DNA of 28,459 bases, taken from a virus. The notes under the pieces are model-generated. The model was not told the DNA's origin. It did no database searches and was given only the letters and a program-made list of their open reading frames with translations. Location of the stretch: positions 1 through 28,459 of IMG/VR virus record IMGVR_UViG_3300046491_000095; one strand, 5' to 3'. Numbering within the stretch: the stretch's first letter is position 1; the number at the start of each line of letters is the position of its first letter. This document shows, one piece after another, positions 9,686 through 27,880 of this stretch. The position numbers were made by a program, and so were the translations under genes.

Positions 9686-12600
9686 ATGGCTGAACAGGCA
9701 GGCGGTGTAGCACTCGTAGCGACGCTGGACTACGGTCCCGCGCTTGCCGCCCTGCGCGAGTTCCAGAAGGCCGTCACGGAGGTAGAGAACTCCGGCGCGC
9801 AGATCAGTAAGCTGCAGGACGACATGCTGCGCGTGAACGCGCGCCTGCAGGAGAACGTCGCCGCGCAGCAGGCTTCCGCCGCCGAGATGGAAGTCCTGAT
9901 CCAGAAGACCAACCAGCTGACCGCCGCGCAGGACAAGGAAGCGGGCGAGGCCGACAAGGCGAACCGCGCGCAGGCGAACGCCATGCGCGCGCAGATCAAG
10001 GACGCCGAGTACCTGAACAAGACGCTGGAGCAGCGTCAGCAGATCCTCGCGCGGATCTCGGCCTCGCTGAAGGGCCAGGATGTGTCGGAGCTGCAGCCCA
10101 AGCAGGCAGAAGTCCTGGCCGCACGCTACGGGCAGCTCGCGGTCACCGAGTACGCGGGCGGCGGTCTCGCGCAGGCGTCGCTCGCGCAGCAGCGTATCGC
10201 CGAGCAGGAGGCGCTCGCGCAGCAGGAGCGGCGCATGAAGCAGGCGAAGCTCGCGGATGACGCGCAGGCCGCCCTGCTGGAAAAGCAACTGGCCGCCGAT
10301 ACGGCCGCTGCGCAGATCGCCAGCGACCAGGCGATCCTGGCTGAGCGTGAGGAAGCCGCCGTCGCGCAGAAGAAGCTCACGGCAGCGCGCATTGCCGATA
10401 ACCAGCAGGCTGCCTTGCTGGAAAAGCAGCTTGCGGCTGATGCAGCGACCGCACAGATCGCTGCCGACCAGGCGATTCTCGCCGAGCGTGAGGAAGCCGC
10501 CGTCGCGCAGAAGCGCCTGAATGCTGCCCGCCTTGCGGACGACGCGCAGGTCGTGCTGCTGGAAAAGGAAATCGCCGCGGGTGAAGCCGCTGCGCGGGTG
10601 ACGGCTGACCAGGCGATTCTCGCCGAACGCGCCGAACGCGTCGCAGCAGAGGCTGCGCTGGCGGCCGCACGCCTTGCCGATGACGAACAGGTCGCGCTGC
10701 TGGAAAAGGCGATCTACGCGCTCGAAGTCGAAAACATCAAGGAGCGTGACCGGCTGATCCTCGCCGAGCAGGCCGAGTACCTCGCCGCGCAGAAGCGCGC
10801 AGCGTCCGAACAGGCTGCGGTTGAAGCGGCGCGCGCTGCCGAGATCAAGCGCAGCGCGGATTACGAGACGTCGACGGTCAGCTCGAAGATGAAGATGCTG
10901 AAGTCGATTGCGGAAGCCGAGAAGATGAGCGGCCCGCTGTCGCAGAACCCGTCGGTAGCCTCGCTGTTCCCGACCTCGGCGCTGTCCGACTACGCGATGA
11001 TCGGCGCGGGTGCGGATGCGTACCACAAGTTCCGCATGGAGCTGGAAGCCGTCGGCAAGGGTGCCGCGAGCGCCGCGACGGGCATCAAGGCCACCGCGCA
11101 GGAAGCGCGCGAAGTGGTGACCATCGCTAAGGACGTCGGCACTGGCGAGTGGGGTCGCTTCACGTCCTCGTTCGTGCGGCTGCTGACGCTCTCGGGCACC
11201 TTCGACGGAATCCTCGGGCCGCTCGGGCTTGCCATCGGCGCGGTGGGCACGGGTGTGGCGATTCTCGGGCTGGCGGCCGTCAAGGGCGCCGAAGAGCAGA
11301 ACAAGCTGAACCTCGCGCTCGCGATGACGGGCAACTACGCCGGTACCACGGTCGAAGGGCTCGAACAGATCGCACACGCTGCGACCTCGATGGGCGGCAC
11401 GATCGGTGAGGCGAAGGAAGTCGTCGCGCAGCTGGCCGAGACAGGCAAGTTCACCAGCGGCCAGATCCTGAACATCGCGACGGCCGTAGTCGAGCTGGGC
11501 CATGCCGGCGGCGACACGAGCAAGGTGCTGCGCGAGTTCCAGTCGCTCGCGCAAGACCCGCTGACCGCGACCGAGCGTTCGGTCGGCGCGCTCACGATGG
11601 CGCTCGCCAAGCTCAACGAGCAGTACCACTTCCTGACCGACGAGCAGTACGAAGAGGTGCGGCTGCTGGAGAAGTCCGGGCAGACTCAGGAAGCGGCGCG
11701 CGTGGCGACTGAGCTGTACGCGGAAGCCGTCCAGGAGCGCGCCAAGCAGGTGGTCGAGGCGCAGGGGTGGATTCTGCAGGGCTGGCACGCCATCAAGGAA
11801 GGTGCGAGCGCAGCGTGGGACGCGATGATGGGGCTGGGGCGCGACGTCGGCACCTCGGGCCGCATCGCGCAGCTCGAAGCCCAGATCAAGGGCGCGCAGG
11901 CCACACAAGGTGGACCGTTTGCCGCAGGCCCCGGCGAGGCGGGCTATGTCGACACGGACGCGATCAAGAGCGAGCTGGCGAGTCTGTACGAGCAACGCCG
12001 GCTGGAAACCGCGGATGCCGCCAAGCAGTCGGAGAAGGCTCAGAGCGATGCCGCGCTGATCGCGGCGACCGCGTGGCATGACCGCTTCGACCAGAAGTTC
12101 TGGAGTCCTGCGCAAAAACGTGCCGCCGAAATCGCCGAGTACTACAAGGCGATTGACCCGCTGCGCAAGGCGGGCAAGATCGATGAGGCGACGATCGCCT
12201 CGGACATCGCCAACATCAACGCGAAGTACCACGACAAGGCGCCCAAGCGCGGTCACATTGACCCGACCGATTACGAGGCGGCCAAGGTACAGGCGACGCT
12301 CGACGCCGACGCAGTCAAGCAGGCGCAGCAGCTGCTTAACCTGCGCAAGCAGATCGGCCTGTACGTCACGGATGAGAACCGCCAGCACCTGCTCACGCTG
12401 CAGGCGCAGGCAGAGATCAGCGCATACGACGCCCAGCGTGAGAAGATCCTCAAGGACATCAAAAACGCGGATCGCAACGGCAATCCGAACAGCAAGCAGC
12501 ATCTGGTCGAGGAACTCGACACGCTGGAGCGCCAGCACCGCTCGAAGATGGACAACCTCGAACTCGACTTCGAGGCGCAGACCGTCGCGCTGAACATGCA

Positions 12601-14200
12601 GCGCGCGCTGACCAACATCGCCACCGTCGAGCAGGCGCGCACGCAGATCCTGACGGCGCAGGACGCACTATGGGGGAACGCTGCCAGCCAGCAGGATGAC
12701 ATCCTGACGCAGATGTACGAGGCGGTGGCGGTCCAGAAGGCGCAGTACGAGCAGGCCAAGCAGATGGTCGCGCTGGGGGACTCGCGCGCGTCGCAGGAAG
12801 AGATCGCGTACGCGCGGCAGGCCAACACGCTGTCGCTCGCCCGGCAGCTGTTTGACATCGAGCAGCAGCGTCAGAAACTGCTGATGGACAACGCGTTCTC
12901 GCTGCAGAACGTGTACCAGCAGACGCTCAACGCGGTGGACGCGCAGATCTCCGCGCTGGAGAAGTCGCGCACCACCCTCGCCGACCAGGCCGTCACGGGC
13001 TTCAGCTCGGGGCTCGGCAAGGCGAATGATTCGCTGTTCCAGTCGTTCAAGGAAAAGAAGACGGCGGACGCGTACACGTTGCAGAACTTCACCGGCAACA
13101 TCGGCGGCGGCATCTACGACTCGATCACGCAATCGCTGTCCAAGGAGCTGACCGAGTCAACGCTCAAGGGCTTCCAGGGTCTTCTGAAGGCGACGGGCGC
13201 GGTGTCGATCGCGGACGCCGCGCGCGAGAAGGCGCAGCAGGATCTGGCACTGAACACCGCGTCGATGACGGAATCGCTGGGCGTGACGATCCCTGACCTG
13301 TTGCGCAAGCAGCTCGGCTACATGGACGGCACGCTGACGCCGACCGGGCCGGTGGGCAATGCCGCCGTCCCCGGCGGCCACGGGGCACTCTCCCAGGCCG
13401 ACCAGAATGCGCAGAACGGTGTGATCGGGCAGGCCGACTTCACCCGCGCCACCGGCAAGCCTTCGGACATCAGCAACGCAACCTCCGCGCTGCAGACGTT
13501 TGGCAAAGAGTCCGATTCAACGCTCAGCCAGTTCGGCCTGACGGCATCGAGCGCTGCGAGCCTGCTCTACACGGGCGTGGTGGCCGCGACCTCGGGCAGC
13601 TCGAAGGCGATCAAGAACTACGTGATCTACGCGACCGCGCAGCTGCTCGAACTGTATGCGATCCAGAAGCTCGTAGGCCTGATCGGCGCCGCAGCGGGGG
13701 GTGCAGGCGCCGCCGCTGGCGAAGGGGTGCAGGTCGGCGCGGTCGCCACGCCCACTGTCACCTCCACACCGCTCTATGCCGACGGTGTCGCGAGCGTCGA
13801 CAAGGACGGCTACATCACCGCGCCGGGCGGCCCGAAGGACGACCGCGGCCTCGCGTGGCTATCCAACGGCGAGTCGGTGCTCACGGCTGCCGCCACCAAG
13901 TACTACGGCGCCGACCGCATCGCGCGCATGAACAAGATGCAGCTGCCGCGCTTTGCCGACGGACGGGTCGGTGCGGGCGCCGGTAGCGGCGTTTCAGGCG
14001 GCGGCAACGTGTACATCGACATGAACTTCGCGAGCGGCGGCGGCAGCAGCACGGACGGCAAGGCGGGCGTGTCGGACGCCGCGCAGAACGGCCAGATGGC
14101 GCGCGATCTCGAATCGGCCGTGCTGAAGGTGATCTCGAAATACTCCCAGCCTGGTGGTGCGGTCTACACCACCATTCGCCAGATTGCAGGACGACCCTAA
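9686..14200 (+). CDS. Tail tape measure protein
   Basis: At 1504 residues this is the longest gene here, placed between the GT chaperone and the M-like gene. The first 450 residues are almost wholly charged Ala/Gln/Glu/Lys helix. Residues 190-377 are four consecutive 47-residue repeats of the type ADDAQ-x-x-LLEK ... DQAILAER. A hydrophobic segment follows (about 507-531, GPLGLAIGAVGTGVAILGLAA), then a lambda-H-like TMP domain (about 530-700), further coiled coil (about 850-1120), a second hydrophobic region (about 1292-1345), and a Gly-rich end that closes with a helix and QPGGAVYTTIRQIAGRP. Such proteins set tail length and reach the host membrane during DNA entry. Using about 0.15 nm per residue, known from lambda-type tails, a tail of roughly 225 nm would be expected. 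Confidence 0.95.
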   Translation: MAEQAGGVALVATLDYGPALAALREFQKAVTEVENSGAQISKLQDDMLRVNARLQENVAAQQASAAEMEVLIQKTNQLTAAQDKEAGEADKANRAQANAMRAQIKDAEYLNKTLEQRQQILARISASLKGQDVSELQPKQAEVLAARYGQLAVTEYAGGGLAQASLAQQRIAEQEALAQQERRMKQAKLADDAQAALLEKQLAADTAAAQIASDQAILAEREEAAVAQKKLTAARIADNQQAALLEKQLAADAATAQIAADQAILAEREEAAVAQKRLNAARLADDAQVVLLEKEIAAGEAAARVTADQAILAERAERVAAEAALAAARLADDEQVALLEKAIYALEVENIKERDRLILAEQAEYLAAQKRAASEQAAVEAARAAEIKRSADYETSTVSSKMKMLKSIAEAEKMSGPLSQNPSVASLFPTSALSDYAMIGAGADAYHKFRMELEAVGKGAASAATGIKATAQEAREVVTIAKDVGTGEWGRFTSSFVRLLTLSGTFDGILGPLGLAIGAVGTGVAILGLAAVKGAEEQNKLNLALAMTGNYAGTTVEGLEQIAHAATSMGGTIGEAKEVVAQLAETGKFTSGQILNIATAVVELGHAGGDTSKVLREFQSLAQDPLTATERSVGALTMALAKLNEQYHFLTDEQYEEVRLLEKSGQTQEAARVATELYAEAVQERAKQVVEAQGWILQGWHAIKEGASAAWDAMMGLGRDVGTSGRIAQLEAQIKGAQATQGGPFAAGPGEAGYVDTDAIKSELASLYEQRRLETADAAKQSEKAQSDAALIAATAWHDRFDQKFWSPAQKRAAEIAEYYKAIDPLRKAGKIDEATIASDIANINAKYHDKAPKRGHIDPTDYEAAKVQATLDADAVKQAQQLLNLRKQIGLYVTDENRQHLLTLQAQAEISAYDAQREKILKDIKNADRNGNPNSKQHLVEELDTLERQHRSKMDNLELDFEAQTVALNMQRALTNIATVEQARTQILTAQDALWGNAASQQDDILTQMYEAVAVQKAQYEQAKQMVALGDSRASQEEIAYARQANTLSLARQLFDIEQQRQKLLMDNAFSLQNVYQQTLNAVDAQISALEKSRTTLADQAVTGFSSGLGKANDSLFQSFKEKKTADAYTLQNFTGNIGGGIYDSITQSLSKELTESTLKGFQGLLKATGAVSIADAAREKAQQDLALNTASMTESLGVTIPDLLRKQLGYMDGTLTPTGPVGNAAVPGGHGALSQADQNAQNGVIGQADFTRATGKPSDISNATSALQTFGKESDSTLSQFGLTASSAASLLYTGVVAATSGSSKAIKNYVIYATAQLLELYAIQKLVGLIGAAAGGAGAAAGEGVQVGAVATPTVTSTPLYADGVASVDKDGYITAPGGPKDDRGLAWLSNGESVLTAAATKYYGADRIARMNKMQLPRFADGRVGAGAGSGVSGGGNVYIDMNFASGGGSSTDGKAGVSDAAQNGQMARDLESAVLKVISKYSQPGGAVYTTIRQIAGRP
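10253..10816 (+). repeat. Four tandem 141-bp (47-residue) repeats in the tape measure gene
   Basis: The units run 10253-10393, 10394-10534, 10535-10675 and 10676-10816. Units 1 and 2 are most alike: a 30-base stretch starting at 10343 recurs identically at 10484, exactly 141 bases later. Units 3 and 4 have diverged but keep LLEK, ILAE and the boundary AARLADD. No residue is inserted or lost between units, so helical phase is kept. Confidence 0.85.
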
Positions 14201-16005: not shown

Positions 16006-16655
16006 GCGCGCGCGTCATCGACAACGAAACCGTGGAAGTCGTGCTCGCCGGCCAGCTCGGCGAGCTGTTCGGCCGCACCCACCACCTCGTGGCCAGCACG
16101 ACGGCCGAGGTGTTCCGCCTGCTCGGCATGAACTATCCGGAGTTCAAGCAGAAGCTGATCGAGGACTCGCAGGCGGGGGCCGAGTATCAGATCGTGGTCG
16201 ACGACGGTGCGCGCGGCGTCGGCGAGAAGGAGCTGACGCTGCCTATCGCCGGCAAGCGGCTGACGATCGTGCATGTGATACAGGGCGGCGGCGGCAAGCT
16301 CTTCTCGGCGGTCGAGTTCGTGGTCGGCCTGATCATTCTCGCGGTGTGCTGGTGGAACCCGTTCGGCTGGGTAGCGGGCGGCGGCATGATGATGGCAGCC
16401 GTGGGCCTGGGCGTGTCGCTCACGCTGGGCGGCATCACAGGGCTGCTGACCACCATCCCGAAAAACAGTAACGGCGGCAATAGCGGCGACTCGCTCAGCT
16501 CGTTCTACTTCAACGGCCCGGCCAACACACAGCAACAGGGTGCGCCCGTGCCCGTCGTCTACGGCCGCGTGCTGATCGGCTCACAGGCCATCTCGGCAGC
16601 GCTGTCGGCGGTGGATCTGGCGAACGCACCCGCCGAAACGGGGAACCTCACTTGA
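16002..16655 (+). CDS. Tail assembly protein, lambda gpI-like
   Basis: This 217-residue protein starts at an ATGA overlap with K. It has an N-terminal ubiquitin-like region (about residues 8-90: VEVVLAGQLGELFG, then AEVFRLLGMNYPEFKQKL and a strand pattern to VIQGGGG). A hydrophobic central region of two probable helices follows (about 105-150: VVGLIILAVCWW and GGMMMAAVGLGVSL), and the C terminus contains APVPVVYGRVLIGSQAISA, a segment shared with the start of J-type tip proteins. That order is characteristic of gpI. In lambda I is needed for tip assembly but is not found in the mature virion. Confidence 0.9.
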   Translation: MSARVIDNETVEVVLAGQLGELFGRTHHLVASTTAEVFRLLGMNYPEFKQKLIEDSQAGAEYQIVVDDGARGVGEKELTLPIAGKRLTIVHVIQGGGGKLFSAVEFVVGLIILAVCWWNPFGWVAGGGMMMAAVGLGVSLTLGGITGLLTTIPKNSNGGNSGDSLSSFYFNGPANTQQQGAPVPVVYGRVLIGSQAISAALSAVDLANAPAETGNLT

Positions 16656-19600
16656 ACGCGCCCTTTCCGCGACGCTTCGCGCACTACCCGGCTCAGAAAA
16701 TTGTCGCCCGCATCCCCACTCCGCCGCGCGGCGCGGGCGGCGGCAAGGATGGCGGAGGCTCAGCCAACACGCCCACGGAAGATCCCGACTCGCTGCAGTC
16801 GGTCGCCTTCGTGTCGCTGCTCGACCTGCTGTGTGAGGGTGAGATCAAGGGGCTGGTGCAGGGTGGTCTGAACCCGAGCGTCGCAGGCGCCCAGACGGAC
16901 GCGATCTTTCTGGATAACGTCCCCATCACCACCAACGGCTCTCCGAACTTCAACGGCTATAAGGTTGCGTGGGTGAACGGCACGCAGAGCCAGCCGGTGG
17001 TTCCCGGCTTCGGCTCGGTCTACACGAGCACGCAGCTGGGTACCCAGGTCAAGAAGGGTGTGCCGATCCAGACGGCCATCGACAACCCCGAGGCGAACGC
17101 CTGCGTGGTCACGCTGTCGGTGTCCGCGCTTTACAGCGTGAACGCGTCAACAGGCGACGTGCATGGCAGCTCGGTCGAGATGGTGGTCGAGTACCAGTCA
17201 AGTGGCAGCCTGGCGTGGACCCAGGTGGTCGATATGACGATCACGGGCAAGACGCGCAGCAAGTACCAGCGCAGCGCCCGCTTCGACCTGCAGGGCGCGG
17301 GCCCGTGGCTCGTGCGCGTGCGCCGTATCACAGACGACTCGACCAGCTCCACGCTGATCAACGACACCTTCTTCGACGTGCTCGAATCAGTGGTCGACCA
17401 GCGGCTGCGCTACCCGAACTCGGCGCTCGTCGGCCTGAACATCGACGCACGCCAGTTCAGCAGCGTGCCGGGCCGCAGCTACCTGATCGACGGGCTGCTG
17501 GTGCGCGTGCCGAACAACTACGACCCGGATCTGCGCACCTACAGCGGCGCATGGAACGGCGGCTTCAAGCTCGCCTTCACCGACAACCCGGCGTGGTGTT
17601 TCTACGACCTGATCACCTCGACCCGCTATGGGCTGGGCAACTACCTGTCCGATTCGACCATCGACAAGACGGCGCTCTACCAGATCAGTCAGTACTGCGA
17701 CGAGATGGTACCCGACGGCTTTGGCGGGCTGGAGCCACGCTTCACCTGCAACATGGTGATCAACAACGCCAAGGAAGCGTACCAGTGCGTGCAGGACATG
17801 CTGTCGATCTTCCGCGGCATGAGCTACTGGGCGGCCGGCAATATCCTCGTCACGCAGGACGCGCCGCATACGCCCGTCAAGACGTTCAGCCGCGCGAACG
17901 TGATCAACGGCAAGTTCCAGTACCAGGGAACGGCGCTCAAGGACCGGCACAGCGTCGCGCTGGTGCGCTGGAACGACCCCGCCCAGCAGTACCAGCAGAA
18001 CACCGAGTACGTCGAAAACGCCGATGCGCTGCAGCGCTTTGGCGTAAAGGTCACGGAGATCATGGCCGTTGGCTGCACCTCGCGAGGACAGGCCCACCGG
18101 CTGGGCCAGTGGGCGCTGATCAGCGAGCTGGCCGACACCGACCAGCTGACCTTCCAGGCCGGGCTCGACGCCGCGATGCTCACGCCGGGCGAGATCATCT
18201 ACGTCGCTGACCCGACGCGCAGCACCAAGCGCATCGGCGGCCGGATCATGAAGGCCGACGTCAACACGATCACGCTCGATGCGCCCGTTGTGCTCGACCC
18301 CGGCGTCACCTACTCGATCATCTACTACGACGGCGACGGCAACAGCCACCAGGCGCAAGTCCTGAATACAGTCAATACGACGGCGCTGCTGAGCTTCGTG
18401 TCGCCCGTCGCTAACGTGCCGCAGCCGGGCTTCATGTGGGTGCTGACGGGCTCGAACCTCGTGCCGCAGACTTTTCGCGTGCTCAACGTGAAGGAGTCCG
18501 AGAAGAACCAGTTCGACGTGACGGCCGTCACCTACAACGCCTCGAAGTACAGCGCGATCGATTTCGGCACCAAGCTGCAGATGCCGCCCATCGGTTACGG
18601 CGACGCGCTCGGCGCGGCATTGCCGACGCTGTGGTCGCTCACCGAGACGACGTTCCTCGCGGCACCTGGCGTGATCGGCTCGAAGATCATCATGAGCTGG
18701 TCGGGCAACACCACCCACTTCATGATCCAGTGGCGCGTAAATGGCGGCATCTGGATGAGCGACACGACGCGCACGCCCGGCTACGAGATCGATGGCGTGA
18801 CCAAGGGAGACATCTACGACTTCAAGGTCTACGGCATCAGCTCGGACGGCTCGCTGTCGCCTTCGCTGGACGAGACCTACACGATCCAGGGCAGCAGCGC
18901 ACCGCCGGGAGCCTGCACGTCACTCACGGGCGCGGCAGACTTCCGCAGCGCGATCCTGAACTGGGCGGCGCCGTCCGACCTCGACCTGAACTACTTCCAG
19001 GTCGCCTACAGCGGCACCAACAATATCGCCACGGCCGCCATTATTGGCGACAAGATCGGCTCGACCAACTGGACGGTGGGCGGCCTCACGCCCACCGTGC
19101 CGTACTACTTTTGGGTGCGCGCGGTCGACACCAGCGGCAACGTCGGGCCGTGGAACAGCAACGTCGGCACGCAGGTGATCCCGAAACAGGGCGGCACGCT
19201 CGACATCGAGAACCTGTCGGTCACCAATGCGAAGATCGCCAACGCCGCGATCGGCACGGCCAACATCCAGAACGCGGCGATCACGGCTGCGCTGATCGCC
19301 AACGCGCAGATCCTGGCCGCACACATCGCCAACGCGCAGATCCAGACGGCACACATCGGCGTCGCGCAGATCGACACGCTGCGCATCGGCGGTAACGCGG
19401 TGACGACGATGGCGTCCTACGGTGTTGGCAACGGCAGCGTGATCAACTACGCGGCGGGCGGCGGCGCCATGCTGGTGTTCCTGACGGGCAACGTCGGCCA
19501 GCCGCCGTCGGGCTCGGGCAACGCCTCGGCAGCCACCAACGTTGGGGGTACCGTATCGATCTCCGGTACTGCGGGTATTCCGCAAAGTAACGTCATAACC

Positions 19601-19690
19601 ATCGGCAACTACTCAGGAAACCTGCAGATTGTGGTGAGCGTAAACAACTGCACGAACCTGGCGGTAACCGTCTTCGAGGCAAAGCGATGA
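16652..19690 (+). CDS. Tail tip attachment/host specificity protein, lambda gpJ-like
   Basis: This 1012-residue protein starts at a TTG that overlaps the previous stop as TTGA; GGGGA at 16640-16644, 7 bases upstream, supports it and no ATG fits better. It opens with a disordered basic/Gly-rich stretch and DSLQSVAFVSLLDLLCEGEIKG, the standard start of J proteins (LLSEGEI-G). The tip barrel follows (about residues 40-740), then a fibronectin-III-type domain (about 748-845, beginning at PPGACTSL and including YYFWVRAVDTSGNVG). Next is a strip of eleven pentads with Ile every fifth residue (about 858-912), and finally a small beta-rich C-terminal domain (about 925-1012) that ends the gene. It probably forms the tail tip trimer. 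Confidence 0.95.
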   Translation: MNAPFPRRFAHYPAQKIVARIPTPPRGAGGGKDGGGSANTPTEDPDSLQSVAFVSLLDLLCEGEIKGLVQGGLNPSVAGAQTDAIFLDNVPITTNGSPNFNGYKVAWVNGTQSQPVVPGFGSVYTSTQLGTQVKKGVPIQTAIDNPEANACVVTLSVSALYSVNASTGDVHGSSVEMVVEYQSSGSLAWTQVVDMTITGKTRSKYQRSARFDLQGAGPWLVRVRRITDDSTSSTLINDTFFDVLESVVDQRLRYPNSALVGLNIDARQFSSVPGRSYLIDGLLVRVPNNYDPDLRTYSGAWNGGFKLAFTDNPAWCFYDLITSTRYGLGNYLSDSTIDKTALYQISQYCDEMVPDGFGGLEPRFTCNMVINNAKEAYQCVQDMLSIFRGMSYWAAGNILVTQDAPHTPVKTFSRANVINGKFQYQGTALKDRHSVALVRWNDPAQQYQQNTEYVENADALQRFGVKVTEIMAVGCTSRGQAHRLGQWALISELADTDQLTFQAGLDAAMLTPGEIIYVADPTRSTKRIGGRIMKADVNTITLDAPVVLDPGVTYSIIYYDGDGNSHQAQVLNTVNTTALLSFVSPVANVPQPGFMWVLTGSNLVPQTFRVLNVKESEKNQFDVTAVTYNASKYSAIDFGTKLQMPPIGYGDALGAALPTLWSLTETTFLAAPGVIGSKIIMSWSGNTTHFMIQWRVNGGIWMSDTTRTPGYEIDGVTKGDIYDFKVYGISSDGSLSPSLDETYTIQGSSAPPGACTSLTGAADFRSAILNWAAPSDLDLNYFQVAYSGTNNIATAAIIGDKIGSTNWTVGGLTPTVPYYFWVRAVDTSGNVGPWNSNVGTQVIPKQGGTLDIENLSVTNAKIANAAIGTANIQNAAITAALIANAQILAAHIANAQIQTAHIGVAQIDTLRIGGNAVTTMASYGVGNGSVINYAAGGGAMLVFLTGNVGQPPSGSGNASAATNVGGTVSISGTAGIPQSNVITIGNYSGNLQIVVSVNNCTNLAVTVFEAKR

Positions 19691-20270: not shown

Positions 20271-20677
20271 GCGGCGCAGCGCTGGACCTGTACATCGAGC
20301 AGGGTGACGACTGGACGCCCATCTGGACGCTGCGGTTCAAGGCGAACGCGCAGCCGATGGACCTGACGGGCTATACGGCGCGCATGCAGATCCGCTCGTC
20401 CTACTCCGCGACGGCCACGCTGGTTGACCTGCAGTCCGCCACGGGCGGCATTGCGCTGGGCGGCGTGAACGGCACGATCCAGCCGAAGCTCACCGATACG
20501 CAGACGATGGCGTTTTTCCCGGTGGGCGGCCCTGCGCCGAACCCGGTGAACGTCAAGGTCAATGACCGGCCCTTCACGCTGGTGGGCGCCTACGACCTGA
20601 AGCTCACGAGCCCGGCAGGCAATACCTTGACCGTCGCGGGCGGCCGCGTGTACTGCTCGCCCGACGTAACCCGATAA
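20267..20677 (+). CDS. Putative baseplate/fibre adaptor protein (BppU-N-like)
   Basis: This 136-residue beta-rich protein carries the pattern LDLYIEQGDDWTPIWTLRFK, then PMDLTGYTARMQIR and a later YDLKLTSPAGNTLTVAGGRVY. That run of 'QG-x-x-W/F', 'DLTGYTARMQIR' and 'YDL-x-L' strands is widespread in small phage proteins at the base of fibres and resembles the N-terminal domain of upper-baseplate BppU proteins, which attach fibres to the tail. It is coupled upstream by ATGA and lies 13 bases before the fibre start. The fibre-docking role is inferred. Confidence 0.6.
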   Translation: MSGAALDLYIEQGDDWTPIWTLRFKANAQPMDLTGYTARMQIRSSYSATATLVDLQSATGGIALGGVNGTIQPKLTDTQTMAFFPVGGPAPNPVNVKVNDRPFTLVGAYDLKLTSPAGNTLTVAGGRVYCSPDVTR

Positions 20678-20690
20678 TCAGGACCGCGAA

Positions 20691-23600
20691 ATGGCCTCGG
20701 ATCTCGAACTTGTAGTAGACGACAGCAACGTCATCGAGTTGCACGACTCGGATGTCGGCGGCACGGCTGCGGCTGGCGCAGCCACCAGTGCGTCAGCAGC
20801 CGCTGCCAGTGCGACAGCCGCGGCCGGAAGCGCGACGGCAGCCGCAGGCAGCGCTACGGCGGCGAGCGGCAGCGCGATGTCGGCCACGGCCTCGAAGAAC
20901 GCGGCTGCCACGTCGGCGACCAATGCGGCCACGAGCGAGACGAATGCGCTCGCCTCGAAGAACGCGGCTGCCACGTCGGCGACTAATGCGGCCACGAGCG
21001 AGACGAATGCGCTCGCCTCGAAGAACGCTGCGGCGACATCCGCGACCAACGCGGCAACCAGCGAGACGAATGCGCTCGCCTCGAAGAACGCAGCCGCCAC
21101 GTCGGCAACAGCCGCTGCCACGTCGGCGACCAACGCCGCCACGTCGGCGACCAACGCCGCCACGAGCGAGACGAACGCGGCGGCCAGCGCGAGCGCGGTG
21201 AACGGCATCCTGACCAAGGACGTCAGCTCCGCGGACGTGACGCTCACCACCCTCGAAGCGGGCAACGGCATCTATCGCTTCACGGGCACGCTGACGGGCA
21301 ACCGCATCGTCACGATCCCGAACACCGGGCACCCGTTCGTCGCGGAGAACCTGACCACCACGGGCGACAGCTTCACGCTCACCCTGAAGGCGGCCGGGCA
21401 GACCCCGTCGATCTCGCTGCTGCGCGGCAAGCCCGCCTCGGGCTTCTGTGACGGCACGGGCGTGTACGCCACGACCTCCAGCCCCGGCCTGGGCTACAGC
21501 AACATCGCGACGGCAGCCGTCGACACGGCGCTCACGCTGTCGAACGTGGGCGGCCTGTTCGTGCAGTCGGGCGCGGGCAGGACCACCACGCTGCCGAAGG
21601 CGTCCACCATCCCTGCCGGGCTCGGGGTGGCTGTCCAGATGGCAGCGGCGTCGAGCATCGCCCTGAACGGCACGGACACGGCCACGGGCATCACCATGCC
21701 GTACAGCGGTGTGCTGCTCGACACGTTTTTCTTCGTCTCGGACGGTGTATCGAACTGGAAGCTGCAGTTCTACGCCAACAAGACGACGCCGAAGTTCGAC
21801 ACCAGTGTCAGCGCGCCGCGCGTGCTGGCCGGCGGTGTGACGGATGATGGCGTAACCTCGCTGCAGGCGAGCACGACGCACTTTGGCAACCTGTACGGCA
21901 CGGCTAAACCGAACCTCGTGGTCAACGGTAGCGGCGAGTTGGGTCTGGTAGGGTGGACCGCTGGACCGTCGGCGCTGAGTGTCGTGACGGACAGCGACGG
22001 CACCTACTTCAAGGGCGCCGCAAACGGTGTGTCCACCACCAACTCGTGGTCCAGTGCGCCGTTCCCGGTATCGCCGAACCAGATCCACTCGGCGCAGGCT
22101 GAGGTGCAGGTGGATGCGGGGGCGACGGGCACCTACTACGTGGACGTGCTGTACTACAGCACAGCAGACGGCTCTGGCGCAGCCGTGCTCGATGGCTCGA
22201 ACTCCTTGCTCAGCGCGACCGATGGCGCGTGGCATTCGTGCCAGGGTACGGATAGCGCAGCTCCGGCGAACGCTTTGTCGGCACGCGTGCGCATTGTGGT
22301 GACTTCGGCCACGTGGACGACGCTCAAGTTCCGCCGCGTCAAGGTCGAGCAGAACGCCGTGCGCTCGGTGTACTCGCAGGAAGCGACTATCGCGCAGGCC
22401 TTGTCGGGGAACAGCCCCGTCATCGCCTCGGGCGGCCTAACCTTCCCCGACGGCTCGCAGCAGACCACGGCACAAGGCCTCACGCAGGCCACCTCGGTGC
22501 GCTATCTGGTCGGTGCCACCGACACGGTCGGCAGCTTCGCAGCGGGCGACACGTCGCTGCGCACGGGCGGCTTCGTGGCGCCGTATGTCGAGATCCTGCG
22601 CAACGGGGATGAGCTGTATCAGGGCATCCACTACACGCTCAACGCCGACGGCATCCACATCAACGGGCTGGACCCGCTGCTGGCGGACGAAGACCTGCTG
22701 ATCAAGACGAAGTTTCCGTACAACCCGAGCACGGTGTATGCGCCGAACTTCCAGCCGCTGACAGTGGCTGCCGGTGCCACGACGATCCCGTTTGCGCATG
22801 TGCAGGGCTGCGCGCTGCTGGCAATGAACGGCGCGCTGCTCGACTATGGCACGGACTACACGGACGACGCGAACAACTTCTACCTGGCAGCGGCGGCGGG
22901 GGGTGAGAAGTACGGTGTGCTGAACCTGAATCCGATCACGATTGCCAACATGCTGGCGAACGTGAACCCGGTGATCGCCTCGGGTGTGCTGCAGTTTGCT
23001 GACGGCACGCAGCAGAACTCCGCAGCGCTACCGTCTGGCCAGTGCTATCTCAGCCTTGTTGGCGGCAACCTCGTGCTCGCCCGCAAGAACGGTAACAAGC
23101 TGTCCATCAACGGCAAGCTATACGCGATCCCGGCAGCCGGTGTGTCGCTGGCTGTGACGGGTGCAACCGCCTCGACGCTCTACTATATCTACGCGTACAT
23201 GAACGGTACGACGATGACGCTGGAGCGGGTCACAACGGGCCACAGCACGGATGCAAACACTGGCGTCGAGATCAAGACGGGTGATCCGTCACGCACGCTG
23301 GTGGGGATGGCCTATTGCGACGGGACTGGCAACTGGCGCGATGACTCGGCAAACCGAATGGTGGCGAGCTACTTCAATCGGAAGGCACGCGGCGCATTCG
23401 GCAACATAGGGACTGTCGGCGGAATCACCACCACATCATATGGCAGCGATGTTGGTTCTGGAATGTCTGCGGTCACCTGGGCTGATGAACTCGTCATATC
23501 GAATCTGGACGTGACGCTGCAGAACAACACCGGGTCGGCGGTGACTTATGCGGTCATATCCATCGATGGAGTTGCCACAACAAGTTCTGAGGCGCAATAC

Positions 23601-23753
23601 CAGCCATATGCAAACAGTGCGTTTGGCATGGGTACGGCGAAGTCCAGAGCTTTCCTTTCCGAAGGGCTTCACGGATTCCAGATAAAGGTGCGGGTAAGCA
23701 GCAACACTGGCACGGTCGTATCTGGTGTGCTCGACATTCAATCGGCGGGGTAA
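20691..23753 (+). CDS. Tail fibre protein
   Basis: This 1020-residue protein has a short N-terminal region (1-25). An Ala/Ser/Thr-rich collagen-like or coiled-coil shaft follows (about 25-170) with 21-residue repeats ASKNAAATSATNAATSETNA, the same type found in lambda side-tail fibres (Stf). Beta-rich domains come next (about 175-560), with two copies of the fibre motif 'FPDGSQQTTAQ' / 'FADGTQQNSAA' (about 583 and 765), each preceding a new domain. The tip (about 898-1020) has a lower GC content. The repeats are exactly three heptads long, consistent with a trimeric shaft. AGGA lies upstream of the ATG. It is probably the receptor-recognising side or central fibre. Confidence 0.9.
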   Translation: MASDLELVVDDSNVIELHDSDVGGTAAAGAATSASAAAASATAAAGSATAAAGSATAASGSAMSATASKNAAATSATNAATSETNALASKNAAATSATNAATSETNALASKNAAATSATNAATSETNALASKNAAATSATAAATSATNAATSATNAATSETNAAASASAVNGILTKDVSSADVTLTTLEAGNGIYRFTGTLTGNRIVTIPNTGHPFVAENLTTTGDSFTLTLKAAGQTPSISLLRGKPASGFCDGTGVYATTSSPGLGYSNIATAAVDTALTLSNVGGLFVQSGAGRTTTLPKASTIPAGLGVAVQMAAASSIALNGTDTATGITMPYSGVLLDTFFFVSDGVSNWKLQFYANKTTPKFDTSVSAPRVLAGGVTDDGVTSLQASTTHFGNLYGTAKPNLVVNGSGELGLVGWTAGPSALSVVTDSDGTYFKGAANGVSTTNSWSSAPFPVSPNQIHSAQAEVQVDAGATGTYYVDVLYYSTADGSGAAVLDGSNSLLSATDGAWHSCQGTDSAAPANALSARVRIVVTSATWTTLKFRRVKVEQNAVRSVYSQEATIAQALSGNSPVIASGGLTFPDGSQQTTAQGLTQATSVRYLVGATDTVGSFAAGDTSLRTGGFVAPYVEILRNGDELYQGIHYTLNADGIHINGLDPLLADEDLLIKTKFPYNPSTVYAPNFQPLTVAAGATTIPFAHVQGCALLAMNGALLDYGTDYTDDANNFYLAAAAGGEKYGVLNLNPITIANMLANVNPVIASGVLQFADGTQQNSAALPSGQCYLSLVGGNLVLARKNGNKLSINGKLYAIPAAGVSLAVTGATASTLYYIYAYMNGTTMTLERVTTGHSTDANTGVEIKTGDPSRTLVGMAYCDGTGNWRDDSANRMVASYFNRKARGAFGNIGTVGGITTTSYGSDVGSGMSAVTWADELVISNLDVTLQNNTGSAVTYAVISIDGVATTSSEAQYQPYANSAFGMGTAKSRAFLSEGLHGFQIKVRVSSNTGTVVSGVLDIQSAG
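20889..21077 (+). repeat. Three tandem 63-bp repeats in the tail fibre shaft
   Basis: Units at 20889-20951 and 20952-21014 differ at a single base (ACC versus ACT). The third, 21015-21077, encodes the same 21 residues with more silent changes, and a degenerate fourth copy follows to about 21170. Each unit is 21 residues, three heptads. Confidence 0.9.
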
Positions 23754-23756
23754 GCA

Positions 23757-24776
23757 ATGACTCTCACACAAAAAATCCAGCAGGCCCTTGCGATGATGTT
23801 CGGTGGCGGGGCGCAGCTGAGCAACCGCAATCTGATCGTCGATGGCAATAAAGATAGCTGGACACAACTTACCGCCCTTAGTCTCAGCACTACCGGACAG
23901 TACACGCCTAACACGCTGTTAGCCGGTCGTGCGGGCGCGGGCGGCGTGGCCACGTACACTGCGGCACCGTGGTCGGGCGCTCCCGGTAACCCTACGATGT
24001 GGGGCATGCAGCAGCCCGCTAAGTATTATGGGAGTTTCCAACAGACCACGGCAAGCGCGGGTACACATGCAGCGCGGACTACTCCTGGTCTGTGGGCTCC
24101 TATTGAGGATGTGCAAACATGCGAGGGCCAATCTTTTACGCTCTCTCTGTGGCTGTGGGCGACTGCACCTATCACTCTCACTAAAGTTATCTTTGACCAA
24201 AACTTTGGTACTGGTGGCAGTCCTAGCGCTACTGTGCTGAACGACGTAACTGTTAATTGGAACCTTACTACCACGCCCCAGCGCTTCTCTGTTCGTATCG
24301 ACGTGCCTAGCATTATCGGTAAGACGTTGGGCACGACTACACCCGGCTATACCCAAGTGGGTGTCTTGTTCCCTCCAGGCGTTACGTTCGCCATTAACGA
24401 CGGTCAATGGCAACTTGAAAAGTCTAGCCCGCAAAGCTCTAGCGACCTTAATGGTAAGGGCGGTACGCCTACGGCGTTTGAATACCGCGGCTTTCAGGCG
24501 GAACTGGCACGTGTGCTGCGATTTTACGAAACGGGCGTTTACTCTTTTTCGGCAGGGTTTACCGCAAACGGCGCGCAGCATGGCGGCACTACACAATTTC
24601 AACAACCAAAGCGCGCGAGTCCAGCGATGAGTGGCGCGAACCAGTCCGCTGGTGGAGTGGCCACCACCGTGAATTTCTCCATCTCTGTGACTGGCATTTT
24701 TATCTGGCACTCCACCAATGCCGCATCCGGCACAGGCGGATTCACAGACACTTGGACAGCCGACGCCCGACTCTAA
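23757..24776 (+). CDS. Adhesin/receptor-binding-type protein, paralogue 1
   Basis: This 339-residue beta-rich protein starts with a short amphipathic helix (MTLTQKIQQALAMMFGGG), then LSNRNLIVDGNKDSW, the start pattern of carbohydrate-binding-like domains found at the ends of phage fibres. It is paralogous to the next gene: residues 150-260 align without gaps to residues 151-261 there, with 64 of 111 identical by my count, and both end in WTADARL. Codons end far more often in T (ACT, GCT, CCT, CTT) than in the rest of the window; bases 24181-24240 are 45% GC against about 65% in the tail genes. This points to acquisition by transfer. Probably a virion adhesin. The alternative is a fibre-tip chaperone or a secreted protein. 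Confidence 0.75.
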   Translation: MTLTQKIQQALAMMFGGGAQLSNRNLIVDGNKDSWTQLTALSLSTTGQYTPNTLLAGRAGAGGVATYTAAPWSGAPGNPTMWGMQQPAKYYGSFQQTTASAGTHAARTTPGLWAPIEDVQTCEGQSFTLSLWLWATAPITLTKVIFDQNFGTGGSPSATVLNDVTVNWNLTTTPQRFSVRIDVPSIIGKTLGTTTPGYTQVGVLFPPGVTFAINDGQWQLEKSSPQSSSDLNGKGGTPTAFEYRGFQAELARVLRFYETGVYSFSAGFTANGAQHGGTTQFQQPKRASPAMSGANQSAGGVATTVNFSISVTGIFIWHSTNAASGTGGFTDTWTADARL

Positions 24777-24788
24777 GGACAACAGACC

Positions 24789-25844
24789 ATGTTCAATCCA
24801 ACAAAAATCGCGCTGCTGATGGCGGGACTGTTCACGCTGAATGCGGCGAACGCGGTGCCGCTCTCAAACCGTAACCTGTTCGTTGATGGCCGGTTCGATA
24901 ACTGGACTTCGACTAGCGCCGCTGCCGGTGTGGGCGTGCTGACGTACGTCGCCCCGACAATGTGGGCAACGGGTGCAGGAACAGGCGGCGCAGCGACCAT
25001 CTCCCGTGTGGACCTGCGAACGAGTGCTAACCTGGCCTACATGGAAAGCGGTGCGCCCTACGCGCTACAGTTCAACCAGACTGTGGCGTCAACAGGCACT
25101 GTAGCGGCAGGGACAGCTCCTTTGATCACGCAGAAAATTGAGGGAGTGAGCAAGTTCGCAGGGCGCAGCGTCACCTTCCAGGTCAAGCTGTGGGCCGCAG
25201 CCAACATGACCATTCCGTCGATTATCGCGAGGCAAGGTTTTGGGACTGGCGGCTCGCCCAGTGCGCAGGTCGTGCAGGACAAGGCGGTCAACTGGGGCGT
25301 TACCACCACCCCAAGGAAGTTCAGCGTACGCATTGACCTGCCCGCCATTACCGGCAAAACAATGGGCAGTAATGGTGACGACTCCCTGCAGATCGGGTTG
25401 TGGCTGCCACCTGGTGTGACGTACACGCTCACAATGGCCGAGGCCCAGGTAGAGTATTGCGATCCAAGCTCGTCGTCGGACATCAACGGGGCAGGCGGCG
25501 CTCCGACGACGTTTGAGTATCGCGGTGAGCAGGCGGAACTGGCGCGGATGAACCGTCATTACCAGGGCGGCAGCACCCGGATGGAGATCGTTAACACGAA
25601 CTACTTCGGGGCCACCCATCGGTTCGTAGTGCCTATGCGAGGCATTCCTGCCATCACCGTTTCAGACGGATCGGGGAATGTAGGCAAATACGCGAGCGCC
25701 GCCGGTGGCAGTAACCGTACCAATTCTGGCGGGCAGTTGGCGCAAGCGCCGAACATTGCGGACTTTCAAACCGACGCCATTGCACAGACTACGAGCGAAG
25801 GAAACTGGGCCTTCATACTGTGGACGGCAGACGCCCGCCTATAA
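24789..25844 (+). CDS. Adhesin-type protein, paralogue 2, with predicted signal peptide
   Basis: This 351-residue protein is collinear with the previous one from LSNRNLFVDG onward. Its first 22 residues instead form a typical Sec signal peptide: Lys6, a hydrophobic core at 7-17 (IALLMAGLFTL), then NAANA giving an A-x-A cleavage site after Ala22, just before VPLSNRN. There is no lipobox Cys. Virion proteins do not normally carry signal peptides, so export from the host cell is suggested. Its composition is nearer to the phage average than that of paralogue 1, so the pair is not a fresh duplication. Upstream AAGGAC supports the ATG. Function unknown: possibly receptor masking, or a virion adhesin whose N-terminal helix only mimics a signal. 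Confidence 0.72.
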   Translation: MFNPTKIALLMAGLFTLNAANAVPLSNRNLFVDGRFDNWTSTSAAAGVGVLTYVAPTMWATGAGTGGAATISRVDLRTSANLAYMESGAPYALQFNQTVASTGTVAAGTAPLITQKIEGVSKFAGRSVTFQVKLWAAANMTIPSIIARQGFGTGGSPSAQVVQDKAVNWGVTTTPRKFSVRIDLPAITGKTMGSNGDDSLQIGLWLPPGVTYTLTMAEAQVEYCDPSSSSDINGAGGAPTTFEYRGEQAELARMNRHYQGGSTRMEIVNTNYFGATHRFVVPMRGIPAITVSDGSGNVGKYASAAGGSNRTNSGGQLAQAPNIADFQTDAIAQTTSEGNWAFILWTADARL

Positions 25845-25869
25845 TCCGCACACCTAACCGGAGAACACC

Positions 25870-26418
25870 ATGTCCGATATCCGCTTCAAGCAGTTCCGTG
25901 ACCCGGCGACGGGCGCAATCAGCGAAACCCGCGTGATCTATTTCGACGAGAACGGCCAGGATCACAACATCCCCGTCGCGGGCATGTGGATGAGTCAGAT
26001 CTACCAGGACTGGCTCGCCGCGGGCGGCACTGTAGAGACTGACCAGGAGAGCACGCAGGACGGGCAGGCTGCGCAATGGAGCGCGATCAAGGCAGAGCGC
26101 GACCGGCGTACGCAGACGGGCGGCTACTACGTCGCGAGCGTCGATAAGTGGTTCCACTCGGACGCGCAGTCGCGCATCCAGCAGATCGGGCTCGTGATGT
26201 ACGGCGCGAATATGCCCGCAGGACTGCAGTGGAAAACGCTGGATGGCTCGTTCGTCACGATGACGCCGACGCTGGCGCAAGCCGTCTTTGCCGCAGCGGG
26301 CGCGAGCGACGCTGCGCTGTTTGCCTACGGCGAGCAGCTCAACGCCCAGGTGCTCGCAGCGAGCGACCCGCTCAGCGTTGATGTGCTGGCAGGCTGGCCG
26401 AAAATCTACGGGGAGTAA
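25870..26418 (+). CDS. DUF4376-type tail fibre assembly-like protein
   Basis: This 182-residue protein has an N-terminal part (1-60) resembling fibre-assembly proteins, and a C-terminal region with the DUF4376 pattern: AQWSAIKAERDRR, GGYYVASVDKWFHSDAQSRIQ, then LQWKTLDGSFVTMT. Proteins of this type lie directly after fibre or adhesin genes in many phages and are taken to be chaperones or fibre-associated proteins. GGAGA precedes the ATG. It closes the fibre region; the next genes belong to the lysis side. The DUF assignment is by eye. Confidence 0.75.
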   Translation: MSDIRFKQFRDPATGAISETRVIYFDENGQDHNIPVAGMWMSQIYQDWLAAGGTVETDQESTQDGQAAQWSAIKAERDRRTQTGGYYVASVDKWFHSDAQSRIQQIGLVMYGANMPAGLQWKTLDGSFVTMTPTLAQAVFAAAGASDAALFAYGEQLNAQVLAASDPLSVDVLAGWPKIYGE

Positions 26419-26421
26419 CCT

Positions 26422-26880
26422 ATGCGCGTCGCGTTCTTCACCGGGCGGCATCCGGGCTTTGCTGGGATCTATGGCGTCATTGTCAAGTGGTGGACGCGCG
26501 GCGACTTCTCGCATACGGAACTCATCGAGAGCGTCAATCCGGACGGCACCGCCAACTGCTGGTCCTCGGCATATCTCGACAAGGGTGTGCGCCGCAAGAC
26601 CTACGCACTCCCCCCTTCCGACTGGCGCTTTGTCGACGTACCGACGACGCCAGAGCAGGAAGCGCAGGCGCTGCAGTGGTTCAAGGATCACACCGGCGAG
26701 CCGTACGACGTGCGCGGCATGTTCGGCATCGCGCTGCGCCGCCTGCCCAACTATCGCGGCAAATGGTTCTGCTCAGAGTCGGTCGCGGCGGCTTTGGGCT
26801 TTTCCGAGCCGTGGCGGCTCGATCCCGCGACCCTGTATATCGCACTCCAACGTGCTGATTTTTCAGGACCGAGAAACTAA
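26422..26880 (+). CDS. Permuted papain-like (YiiX/NlpC-P60-related) hydrolase
   Basis: This 152-residue protein shows the circularly permuted order of the YiiX/YaeF group: the catalytic His comes first, in GDFSHTELIES (His31), and the Cys later, in GKWFCSESVAAALG (Cys117). An EPYDVRGMFG segment lies between them, as in the family. There is no signal peptide or membrane helix. Such enzymes act as peptidases, amidases or acyl-transfer enzymes; the substrate cannot be told from sequence. Located 3 bases after the DUF4376 gene and before the lysis genes, it could process cell-wall or lipid material during entry or lysis. Confidence 0.7.
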   Translation: MRVAFFTGRHPGFAGIYGVIVKWWTRGDFSHTELIESVNPDGTANCWSSAYLDKGVRRKTYALPPSDWRFVDVPTTPEQEAQALQWFKDHTGEPYDVRGMFGIALRRLPNYRGKWFCSESVAAALGFSEPWRLDPATLYIALQRADFSGPRN

Positions 26881-26963: not shown

Positions 26964-27314
26964 ATGGACGCGACACTCGTTATCGCCGCTGCGGGCGTGA
27001 TCGTGCCGGTAGTAGGCGGTCTCGTCGGGTGGCTGTGGAATGCGCATTCAAAGCGCATCGACGCGCTAGAACAGAGAAACGCCGAGCAGGATGCAGCGAT
27101 GAAGTCTATAGCAGACAAGCACGCAGCTTTCGAACTCCAGGTCACCAAGGACTTCATCACGCAGCCCGCGCTGATGCAGGTGATGAGCGCTCTGGACAGA
27201 ACCATCACGGCACTCTCTGACGTCATCAAGGACAACCAGCGTGAGACGCGGGCGCAGCTCAACGCGCTCAATGAGCGAATCGACGTTCTCTTCAGCGAAA
27301 AGACCAAGGGGTGA
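26964..27314 (+). CDS. Membrane-anchored coiled-coil protein, holin-like candidate
   Basis: This 116-residue protein has one N-terminal transmembrane helix (about residues 4-25, LVIAAAGVIVPVVGGLVGWLW), then a long charged helix likely to form a coiled coil (about 30-112, with IDALEQRNAEQD and LNALNERIDVLF). The layout resembles XhlA-like or class III-type lysis accessory proteins. AGGA at 26954-26957 supports the start. It lies right before the endolysin, so a lysis role (holin, antiholin or holin partner) is likely. The alternative is an unrelated membrane protein. Confidence 0.6.
   Translation: MDATLVIAAAGVIVPVVGGLVGWLWNAHSKRIDALEQRNAEQDAAMKSIADKHAAFELQVTKDFITQPALMQVMSALDRTITALSDVIKDNQRETRAQLNALNERIDVLFSEKTKG
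27306..27311 (+). promoter_or_regulatory. Ribosome binding site that fixes the endolysin start
   Basis: AAGGGG lies 8 bases before ATG at 27320. The upstream GTG at 27311 overlaps the ribosome binding site itself and therefore has no usable spacing, so the ATG is preferred. Confidence 0.6.
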
Positions 27315-27319
27315 CCACG

Positions 27320-27880
27320 ATGCTGCCACAGCCGAATTACTCTGCCCGCTTCCTCGCCGTCATCAAGACCCTCTTCAGGATCGAGGGCGGTGTCTCCAAT
27401 GACAAGGACGACCACGGCGGCCTCACGAACATGGGCGTCACGCAGGCGGCCTACGACAGCTGGCGCAGGAAGCACGACCTGCCCGTGCAGCCCGTCACGT
27501 TCATCACCCCGCCCGAGGCCACGCAGCTGTACTGGGAAGACTACTGGACGCTTGCACAGGCGCCGCAACTGCCCGCCCCGCTCGATGCGCTCGTGTTCGA
27601 CATGGGCGTGAACAGCGGCCCCGGCCAGGCGAAGATGACCTTGCAGCAGACGATGGGCATGGGCGGTTCGGCCGTCGACGGCAAGATCGGCCCGAAGACG
27701 CTGGGCATGATCGCGAGCTACCAGCCGCTGCGCCTCTCGGACGAATACCTCGACGCGCGCGAGCGCTTCTACTACGACATCTGCGCACGCGACCCGTCGC
27801 AGAAGCGCTTCCTCTCGGGCTGGATCAACCGGCTCGAAGGGCTGCGCAAGACGTTCGGCGTGCCTCGCGCCGAAGCCTAA
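27320..27880 (+). CDS. Endolysin, GH108-type N-acetylmuramidase
   Basis: This 186-residue protein has the GH108 active-site start: a helix RFLAVIKTLFRIEGGVSND with catalytic Glu22, then DDHGGLTNMGVTQAAYDSW. Other family marks are LYWEDYWTLAQ and FDMGVNSGPGQA (a helical core), then DGKIGPKTLGMI, which is the peptidoglycan-binding-like second half common to this family, and a C-terminal GWINRLEGLRKTF. It should cut the glycan strand of peptidoglycan. There is no signal peptide or membrane helix, so release depends on a holin. Confidence 0.92.
   Translation: MLPQPNYSARFLAVIKTLFRIEGGVSNDKDDHGGLTNMGVTQAAYDSWRRKHDLPVQPVTFITPPEATQLYWEDYWTLAQAPQLPAPLDALVFDMGVNSGPGQAKMTLQQTMGMGGSAVDGKIGPKTLGMIASYQPLRLSDEYLDARERFYYDICARDPSQKRFLSGWINRLEGLRKTFGVPRAEA

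Follow-up and report, generated by a model that had tools for sequence, protein, structure and literature searches.

Known phage systems offer two quite different precedents for a product encoded beside a receptor-binding gene. Among Klebsiella phage adhesins, the N terminus of the second protein is a conserved stretch of 7 to about 29 residues (PMC6872550). In the T5-like siphophages DT57C and DT571/2, the N-terminal 45 amino acids of LtfB resemble gp15 of phiEco32, which binds gp14, and LtfA and LtfB provide two glycan specificities (PMC4728585, PMC10713586). Llp of phage T5, on the other hand, is a small lipoprotein that is expressed early (PMC9586334).

The locus described here seemed at first to fall in with Llp. 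The window (the whole stretch of DNA that was analyzed, 28.5 kb from a collection of virus sequences) contains two adjacent adhesin-like genes. The original prediction took the second of them to bear a near-textbook Sec signal peptide and, as its leading reading, to encode an exported module that blocks superinfection. Our analysis indicates that the product of this gene, P0001, is instead probably a virion tip adhesin held by a docking helix and not a secreted receptor blocker.

The Tail-Fiber Locus and Its Tip Module

The window is annotated with the tail genes of a lambda-type siphophage, including those for a tape measure (9686-14200) and a J-like host-specificity protein (16652-19690), and the closest relatives of the phage are Burkholderiales prophages and phages (Caballeronia, Paraburkholderia, and Burkholderia). 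A long tail fiber of 1020 residues (P0003; 20691-23753, + strand) matches PHROG tail fibers over residues 24-190 and has an Ala/Ser/Thr-rich repeat stalk. Since its gene lies directly upstream of the tip genes, this fiber is probably the scaffold that carries their products. Searches of PHROG, Pfam, and PDB sequences, which can miss such domains, detected neither a T4 gp10-like domain nor any other domain of solved structure in the long fiber. Within the stalk, a 63-bp tandem repeat is present in 3.5 copies (20889-21106) with units rich in Ala, Ser, Thr, and Asn, and fiber length may change with the copy number of this repeat.

Two standalone tip adhesins follow, P0002 (339 aa; 23757-24776, + strand) and P0001 (351 aa; 24789-25844, + strand). 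Both match the C-terminal part of the tail fiber family PHROG 4492 (positions about 785-1094 of 1096; E=7e-42 for P0002 and 2.5e-40 for P0001), and they share 44% identity over 272 aa. The same module ends the Nazgul42 fiber of BcepNazgul, an 801-aa Caballeronia prophage fiber (L005, 53% identical to P0001 in this module), and a Paraburkholderia prophage protein (L006). The tail-fiber family matches and these fused homologues bear out the earlier view of the two genes as paralogues of an adhesin or receptor-binding type. Beyond P0001 lie a DUF4376 tail protein (25870-26418, + strand; Pfam PF14301, E=1.8e-19; PHROG 2837 tail) with a possible role as a fiber assembly factor, a papain-like protein (26422-26880; weakly Peptidase C54 or NlpC type) between the fiber genes and the lysis genes, and an endolysin (27311-27880). 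PHROG 1128 labels the papain-like product "enoyl-CoA hydratase-like", a doubtful name.

The third-position G+C of both tip genes is low (57% for P0002 and 70% for P0001) relative to the 77-91% found in J, the long fiber, and the downstream genes, a pattern to be expected if the adhesin cassettes at 23757-25844 were exchanged recently. Over 6576 bases, a near-identical contig (IMGVR_UViG_3300046457_000079) shows only 5 mismatches to the window. All five differences fall at third codon positions within 91 bp of P0002 (24176-24266) and leave the protein the same in the part compared, a distribution that resembles a short tract of recombination or a mosaic made in assembly.

The tip module is without a Pfam model, and a PDB sequence search returned no match for the long fiber or the module profile. 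The AlphaFold2 model of P0001 contains a beta jelly roll at about residues 43-223 (24915-25457, + strand), with pLDDT mostly above 70 in this region. Foldseek matched the model to CBM4 (E=1e-6), CBM22, CBM16, CBM30, and phage tailspikes in the PDB (E=1e-6 to 1e-4, probability 1.00), which places the predicted fold with the carbohydrate-binding jelly rolls of the CBM4/22/16 type. The P0002 model is also a jelly roll, and its best BFVD match is the BcepNazgul tail fiber (E=2.3e-30). Judging from the modeled fold, the ligand of P0001 is likely to be a glycan. Across the standalone members of the PHROG 4492 type, an alignment of the CBM-like body has 30 invariant columns. The C-terminal ADARL of P0001 (25827-25841, + strand) is present in P0002 and has a similar counterpart in the fused fibers, and its D-A-R is invariant across 15 standalone relatives.

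A Helical Leader Shared by Standalone Tip Modules

Single-sequence scans of genome and viral contigs found no relatives because patterns made from one sequence are too specific. Alignment-based scans succeeded, and those of IMG/VR together with prophages gave 15 close standalone members, with the two genes of the window counted. Searches of 398 Burkholderiaceae genomes and of two genera matched only three genomes; P0001 orthologues are therefore rare among the genomes searched. In the IMG/VR relatives, the module is encoded alone beside a long fiber, often as tandem pairs. Two further contigs (L030, 1527-9000, and L122, 660-4800) have runs of at least four distant standalone tip genes, each with a short N-terminus followed by KN-x-[IL]NG, suggesting larger adhesin arrays.

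In each of the 15 close standalone members, R-N is preceded by about 21-30 residues that open with a helix-forming stretch, and the alignment puts this short helical leader ahead of P-L-S-N-R-N. The leaders include MISIAQKLARLADLFAGNASSTGLPLSNRN, MTSPVNLIAHLLDLFDFLPLSNRN, MSALSKLASLLGLFDGTLPLANRN, MTVAANLLARLVDLFDFNQYSNRN, MSLLDRLSTLVDWFDFLQMSNRN, MSLAQQLSRLGELFGAGLPLSNRN, MTAIDKFAKLLDIYTNVPFAHRN, MSLNQTLARLSDIGGPAGVPFANRN, and MSQAVNLARLSDVNENLPLSNRN. A similar leader precedes neighboring tip genes that have other bodies (L021 at 5128, MSQALNTARLSDGAGG; L010 at 2483, MSNANLTARAADLN). In most members, the leader core contains D, E, K, or R, as in KLARLADLF, LLARLVDLF, and KFAKLLDIY, and these charged leaders cannot act as Sec signals. 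The P0001 core, KIALLMAGLF (residues 6-15; 24804-24833, + strand), was scored against a leader motif built from eleven members outside the window/L016 pair, with a penalty for the one inserted residue that the match requires. It scored 9.8, a value that 0.3% of shuffles reach and 0.4% of the 746 ORFs scored from outside the family. The family members, when left out one by one, scored 8.2-21.6, and 14 true signal peptides scored at most 6.6, with 13 of them below 3. The P0001 stretch is best read as the family leader helix turned very hydrophobic.

The corresponding core in P0002, KIQQALAMMF (residues 6-15; 23772-23801, + strand), does not match the wider-family motif (score -0.6). Each paralogue nevertheless has one predicted helix here (residues 4-14 in P0001 and 3-14 in P0002 by AlphaFold2, with leader pLDDT below 50 in both models), the two helices take up the same place in the alignment within the family-wide leader region, and K6-I7 and F15 are common to both. 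The N-termini had been called unrelated, a description that these shared features do not bear out; common descent of the two helices appears likely. Both proteins do go on with LSNRNL-x-VDG, as had been noted.

The closest syntenic phage, L016 (J 76% identical), has the fiber and a first and second tip gene and therefore allows leaders and bodies to be compared by position. Leader identity between the window and L016 is 71% for first against first and 52% for second against second, compared with 29-33% for the cross pairs. The core body of P0001 is 58% identical to that of the first L016 gene versus 49% for the second, and in the tree P0001 falls in a supported group (98/90) apart from P0002 (100/98, with L025 and L101). 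In this one phage pair, leader type follows gene position and the bodies do not. By analogy with multi-adhesin phages, in which a short N-terminal peptide docks the second adhesin (PMC6872550), and with LtfB of DT57C (PMC4728585), such a pattern would be the signature, in one pair, of position-specific attachment peptides with exchangeable bodies behind them.

The two second-position leaders also differ from each other in a telling way. K-I-A-L-L-x-x-G-L-F is identical between P0001 and its L016 counterpart, whereas the linker that follows is TLNAANAV in one (24834-24857, + strand) and GGGNSGAGT in the other. A signal peptide is expected to keep its hydrophobicity and the residues at -3 and -1, not particular core residues. 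Conservation of the core and not of the would-be cleavage region is, as far as these two sequences can tell, opposite to what signal peptides typically show. The A-x-A of P0001 comes from its linker. G, A, and N abound in the linkers of the family, and about 41% of 8-residue draws with this composition contain [AVSTG]-x-A, so that the A-N-A of P0001 is cheap.

How Signal-Like Is the P0001 Leader?

The resemblance to a Sec signal is strong. P0001 begins MFNPTKIALLMAGLFTLNAANA and continues, past the would-be signal peptidase I (SPase I) cut after A22, with VPLSNRNLFVDG. K6, an uncharged core at 7-17, and A20-N21-A22 are all present in the signal-like leader (residues 1-22; 24789-24854, + strand). 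A hand-made scorer, which looks for a basic n-region, a hydrophobic core free of charges, and small side chains at positions -3 and -1, found each of these in P0001 and gave it 11.5. The positive controls, 14 E. coli signal peptides, scored 10.5-14.4. The near-textbook motif of the original prediction is thus confirmed and lies within the range of true signals. A score at least this high occurs in 0.66% of 905 ORFs from related loci, P0001 itself counted, and in 0.2% of shuffles of P0001's own leader. This rarity shows that the likeness is real and not an effect of composition, and an origin by chance only was ruled out by the shuffles.

Among the close standalone members scored, P0001 shares this strong likeness with the second tip gene of L016. 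That gene scores 10.7, the first-position genes have intermediate scores (6.1 and 7.2), and the members from outside the window and L016 get either no signal score or one of 3.7 at most, largely owing to charged residues in the leader core. A signal conserved across the family was rejected on account of the charged cores of most members. The expectation that would count against export, that homologues all lack a signal-like N terminus, accordingly holds for every relative scored with one exception, the same-position gene of L016. The leaders of P0001 and this L016 gene rank lowest of the set in hydrophobic moment (muH 0.26 for P0001 and 0.33 for the L016 gene, versus 0.42-0.70 for the others) and have the highest hydrophobicity (H 0.60 and 0.69, respectively), near true signals. 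The only Cys of the 351-residue P0001 is residue 224, and the protein has no lipobox of the kind found in small lipoproteins such as Llp or Cor.

The gene start is well supported. The P0001 ORF opens with ATG, and AAGGA (24775-24779, + strand) lies 9 nt 5′ of it and partly overlaps the P0002 stop codon. The second tip gene of L016 has the same arrangement, TTTAAGGACTACAAACA-ATG. P0001 sits inside a packed tail-to-lysis gene run, and a scan of the + strand from 20400 to 26500 gave no promoter-like site. The overlapping ribosome-binding site, its recurrence in L016, and the lack of a promoter-like site fit expression together with the virion genes. A mis-annotated start, with translation from GTG at 24855 and the leader left untranslated, was considered because this GTG is codon 23, right after A22, and its product would open at the conserved PLSNRN. 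It was discarded as extremely improbable, since no site comparable to AAGGA lies ahead of 24855 and the leader DNA, ribosome-binding site included, is 80% identical to L016 over aligned bases, with the protein at 52%.

Docking or Export

We propose that a siphophage tail fiber carries two tip adhesins, each with a gene of its own, and that P0001 is the second. Its body would be a carbohydrate-binding jelly roll that other phages fuse to the end of the long fiber and that has here been cut loose, with a flexible linker and, at the N-terminus, a short helix. The helix would dock the adhesin onto the fiber or its partner during cytoplasmic assembly, the helix type would set which of the two sites each adhesin occupies, and the bodies could be swapped to alter glycan specificity. 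The Sec look would then arise because the docking helix is unusually hydrophobic, has a Lys ahead of it, and leads into a linker of small residues in which A-N-A occurs by chance. A false signal serving as a coiled anchor had been among the readings offered originally, and of these it is the best supported. Against docking, the P0001 match to the leader motif needs an inserted residue, the leaders are modeled with low pLDDT, and the sequence searches of the long fiber brought up no docking partner. In addition, the P0001 and L016 second leaders are the least amphipathic and most hydrophobic of the set, and both pass the signal scorer.

These leader properties are what a working Sec signal would have. 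If SPase I cut after A22, the whole module would be left intact, to be periplasmic or released as a mature CBM-like protein, and soluble T5 receptor-binding protein pb5 does block infection when added to cells (PMC9586334). Nonetheless, we regard export as unlikely. The same N-terminal element is charged and non-exportable in nearly all relatives, A-N-A is not conserved in L016, P0001 has neither a lipobox nor an outer-membrane barrel, and the stretch from 20400 to 26500 showed no promoter-like site on the + strand, whereas Llp is made early (PMC9586334). The further step, in which exported P0001 would bind LPS, capsule, or a precursor glycan and so lower adsorption of sister phages, is no less doubtful, because the fold suggests a glycan ligand and a glycan at the cell surface is out of reach of masking by a periplasmic binder. 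The exported superinfection-blocking module of the original prediction is therefore not favored. A lineage-specific version, in which the docking helix of the second adhesin became a true Sec signal in the window/L016 lineage and the exported paralogue masks or titrates its own receptor glycan, seems to us improbable as well. Dual fate, with most P0001 docked on the fiber and a fraction leaking to the periplasm through weak Sec/SRP recognition and without a selected role, would suit the intermediate scores of the first-position genes; late expression would leave little time for export, and we give this little credence. P0001 could also be a decayed or selfish adhesin duplicate without function, to which its foreign third-position G+C might point. 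Its frame is open, the invariant residues and the C-terminal ADARL are conserved, and tandem pairs are retained in several phages, which makes this extremely unlikely. Among the papers listed by literature searches, none was a direct precedent, either for structural phage proteins wrongly called signal-bearing or for receptor-binding proteins secreted as decoys.

Docking of P0001 as a tip adhesin would carry a warning: what looks like a strong Sec signal at the start of a phage adhesin can turn out to be a helix for docking onto the virion, which bears on the calling of lysogenic-conversion or exclusion genes from signal predictions. It also points to a family of exchangeable fiber-tip modules in phages related to Burkholderiales prophages, in which a short leader seems to set adhesin position, and this family should be useful for reading host range from metagenomes. 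Export with masking of the receptor, if true, would mean that a phage receptor-binding protein has been re-used as a superinfection-exclusion factor.

Comparison with Known Systems

The likeness to T5 Llp, a supposition of the original prediction, is that of a signal-bearing product encoded beside a receptor-binding gene. Llp is Cys-anchored and unlike the adhesin, whereas P0001 is a fiber-tip homologue without a lipobox. Comparable in arrangement is gp38 of T2, S16, and PP01, a non-fused adhesin at the fiber tip held by its N-terminal part, although gp38 folds as a polyglycine-II sandwich and recognizes OmpC (PMC12892980) and P0001 is a predicted beta jelly roll. LtfA and LtfB of DT57C and DT571/2 come from a siphophage, and the second fiber protein is proposed to be carried by the first (PMC4728585, PMC10713586). 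LtfB is a full fiber and P0001 a short tip module; the likeness drawn here is one of arrangement. Homologous modules (45-53% identity) are found in Nazgul42 and in the Burkholderiales prophage fibers L003, L005, and L006; these are fused to a long fiber and hence, unlike P0001, have no leader of their own.

The multi-adhesin or anchor-branch systems of the Klebsiella phages KP32, KP34, and Menlow and of coliphages K1-5 and G7C (PMC6872550) are similar in having a long first fiber or spike followed by separate receptor-binding proteins. They differ in that P0001 and P0002 are CBM-like jelly rolls and not depolymerase spikes, that their N-terminal peptide is helical and either hydrophobic or amphipathic, and that the T4 gp10-like docking domain of the first fiber was not detected by sequence in the window. 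What these systems have in common with P0001 and P0002 is that only a short N-terminal peptide is shared and the bodies are exchanged (PMC6872550), and in the window/L016 pair the leader is likewise conserved by position with different bodies behind it.
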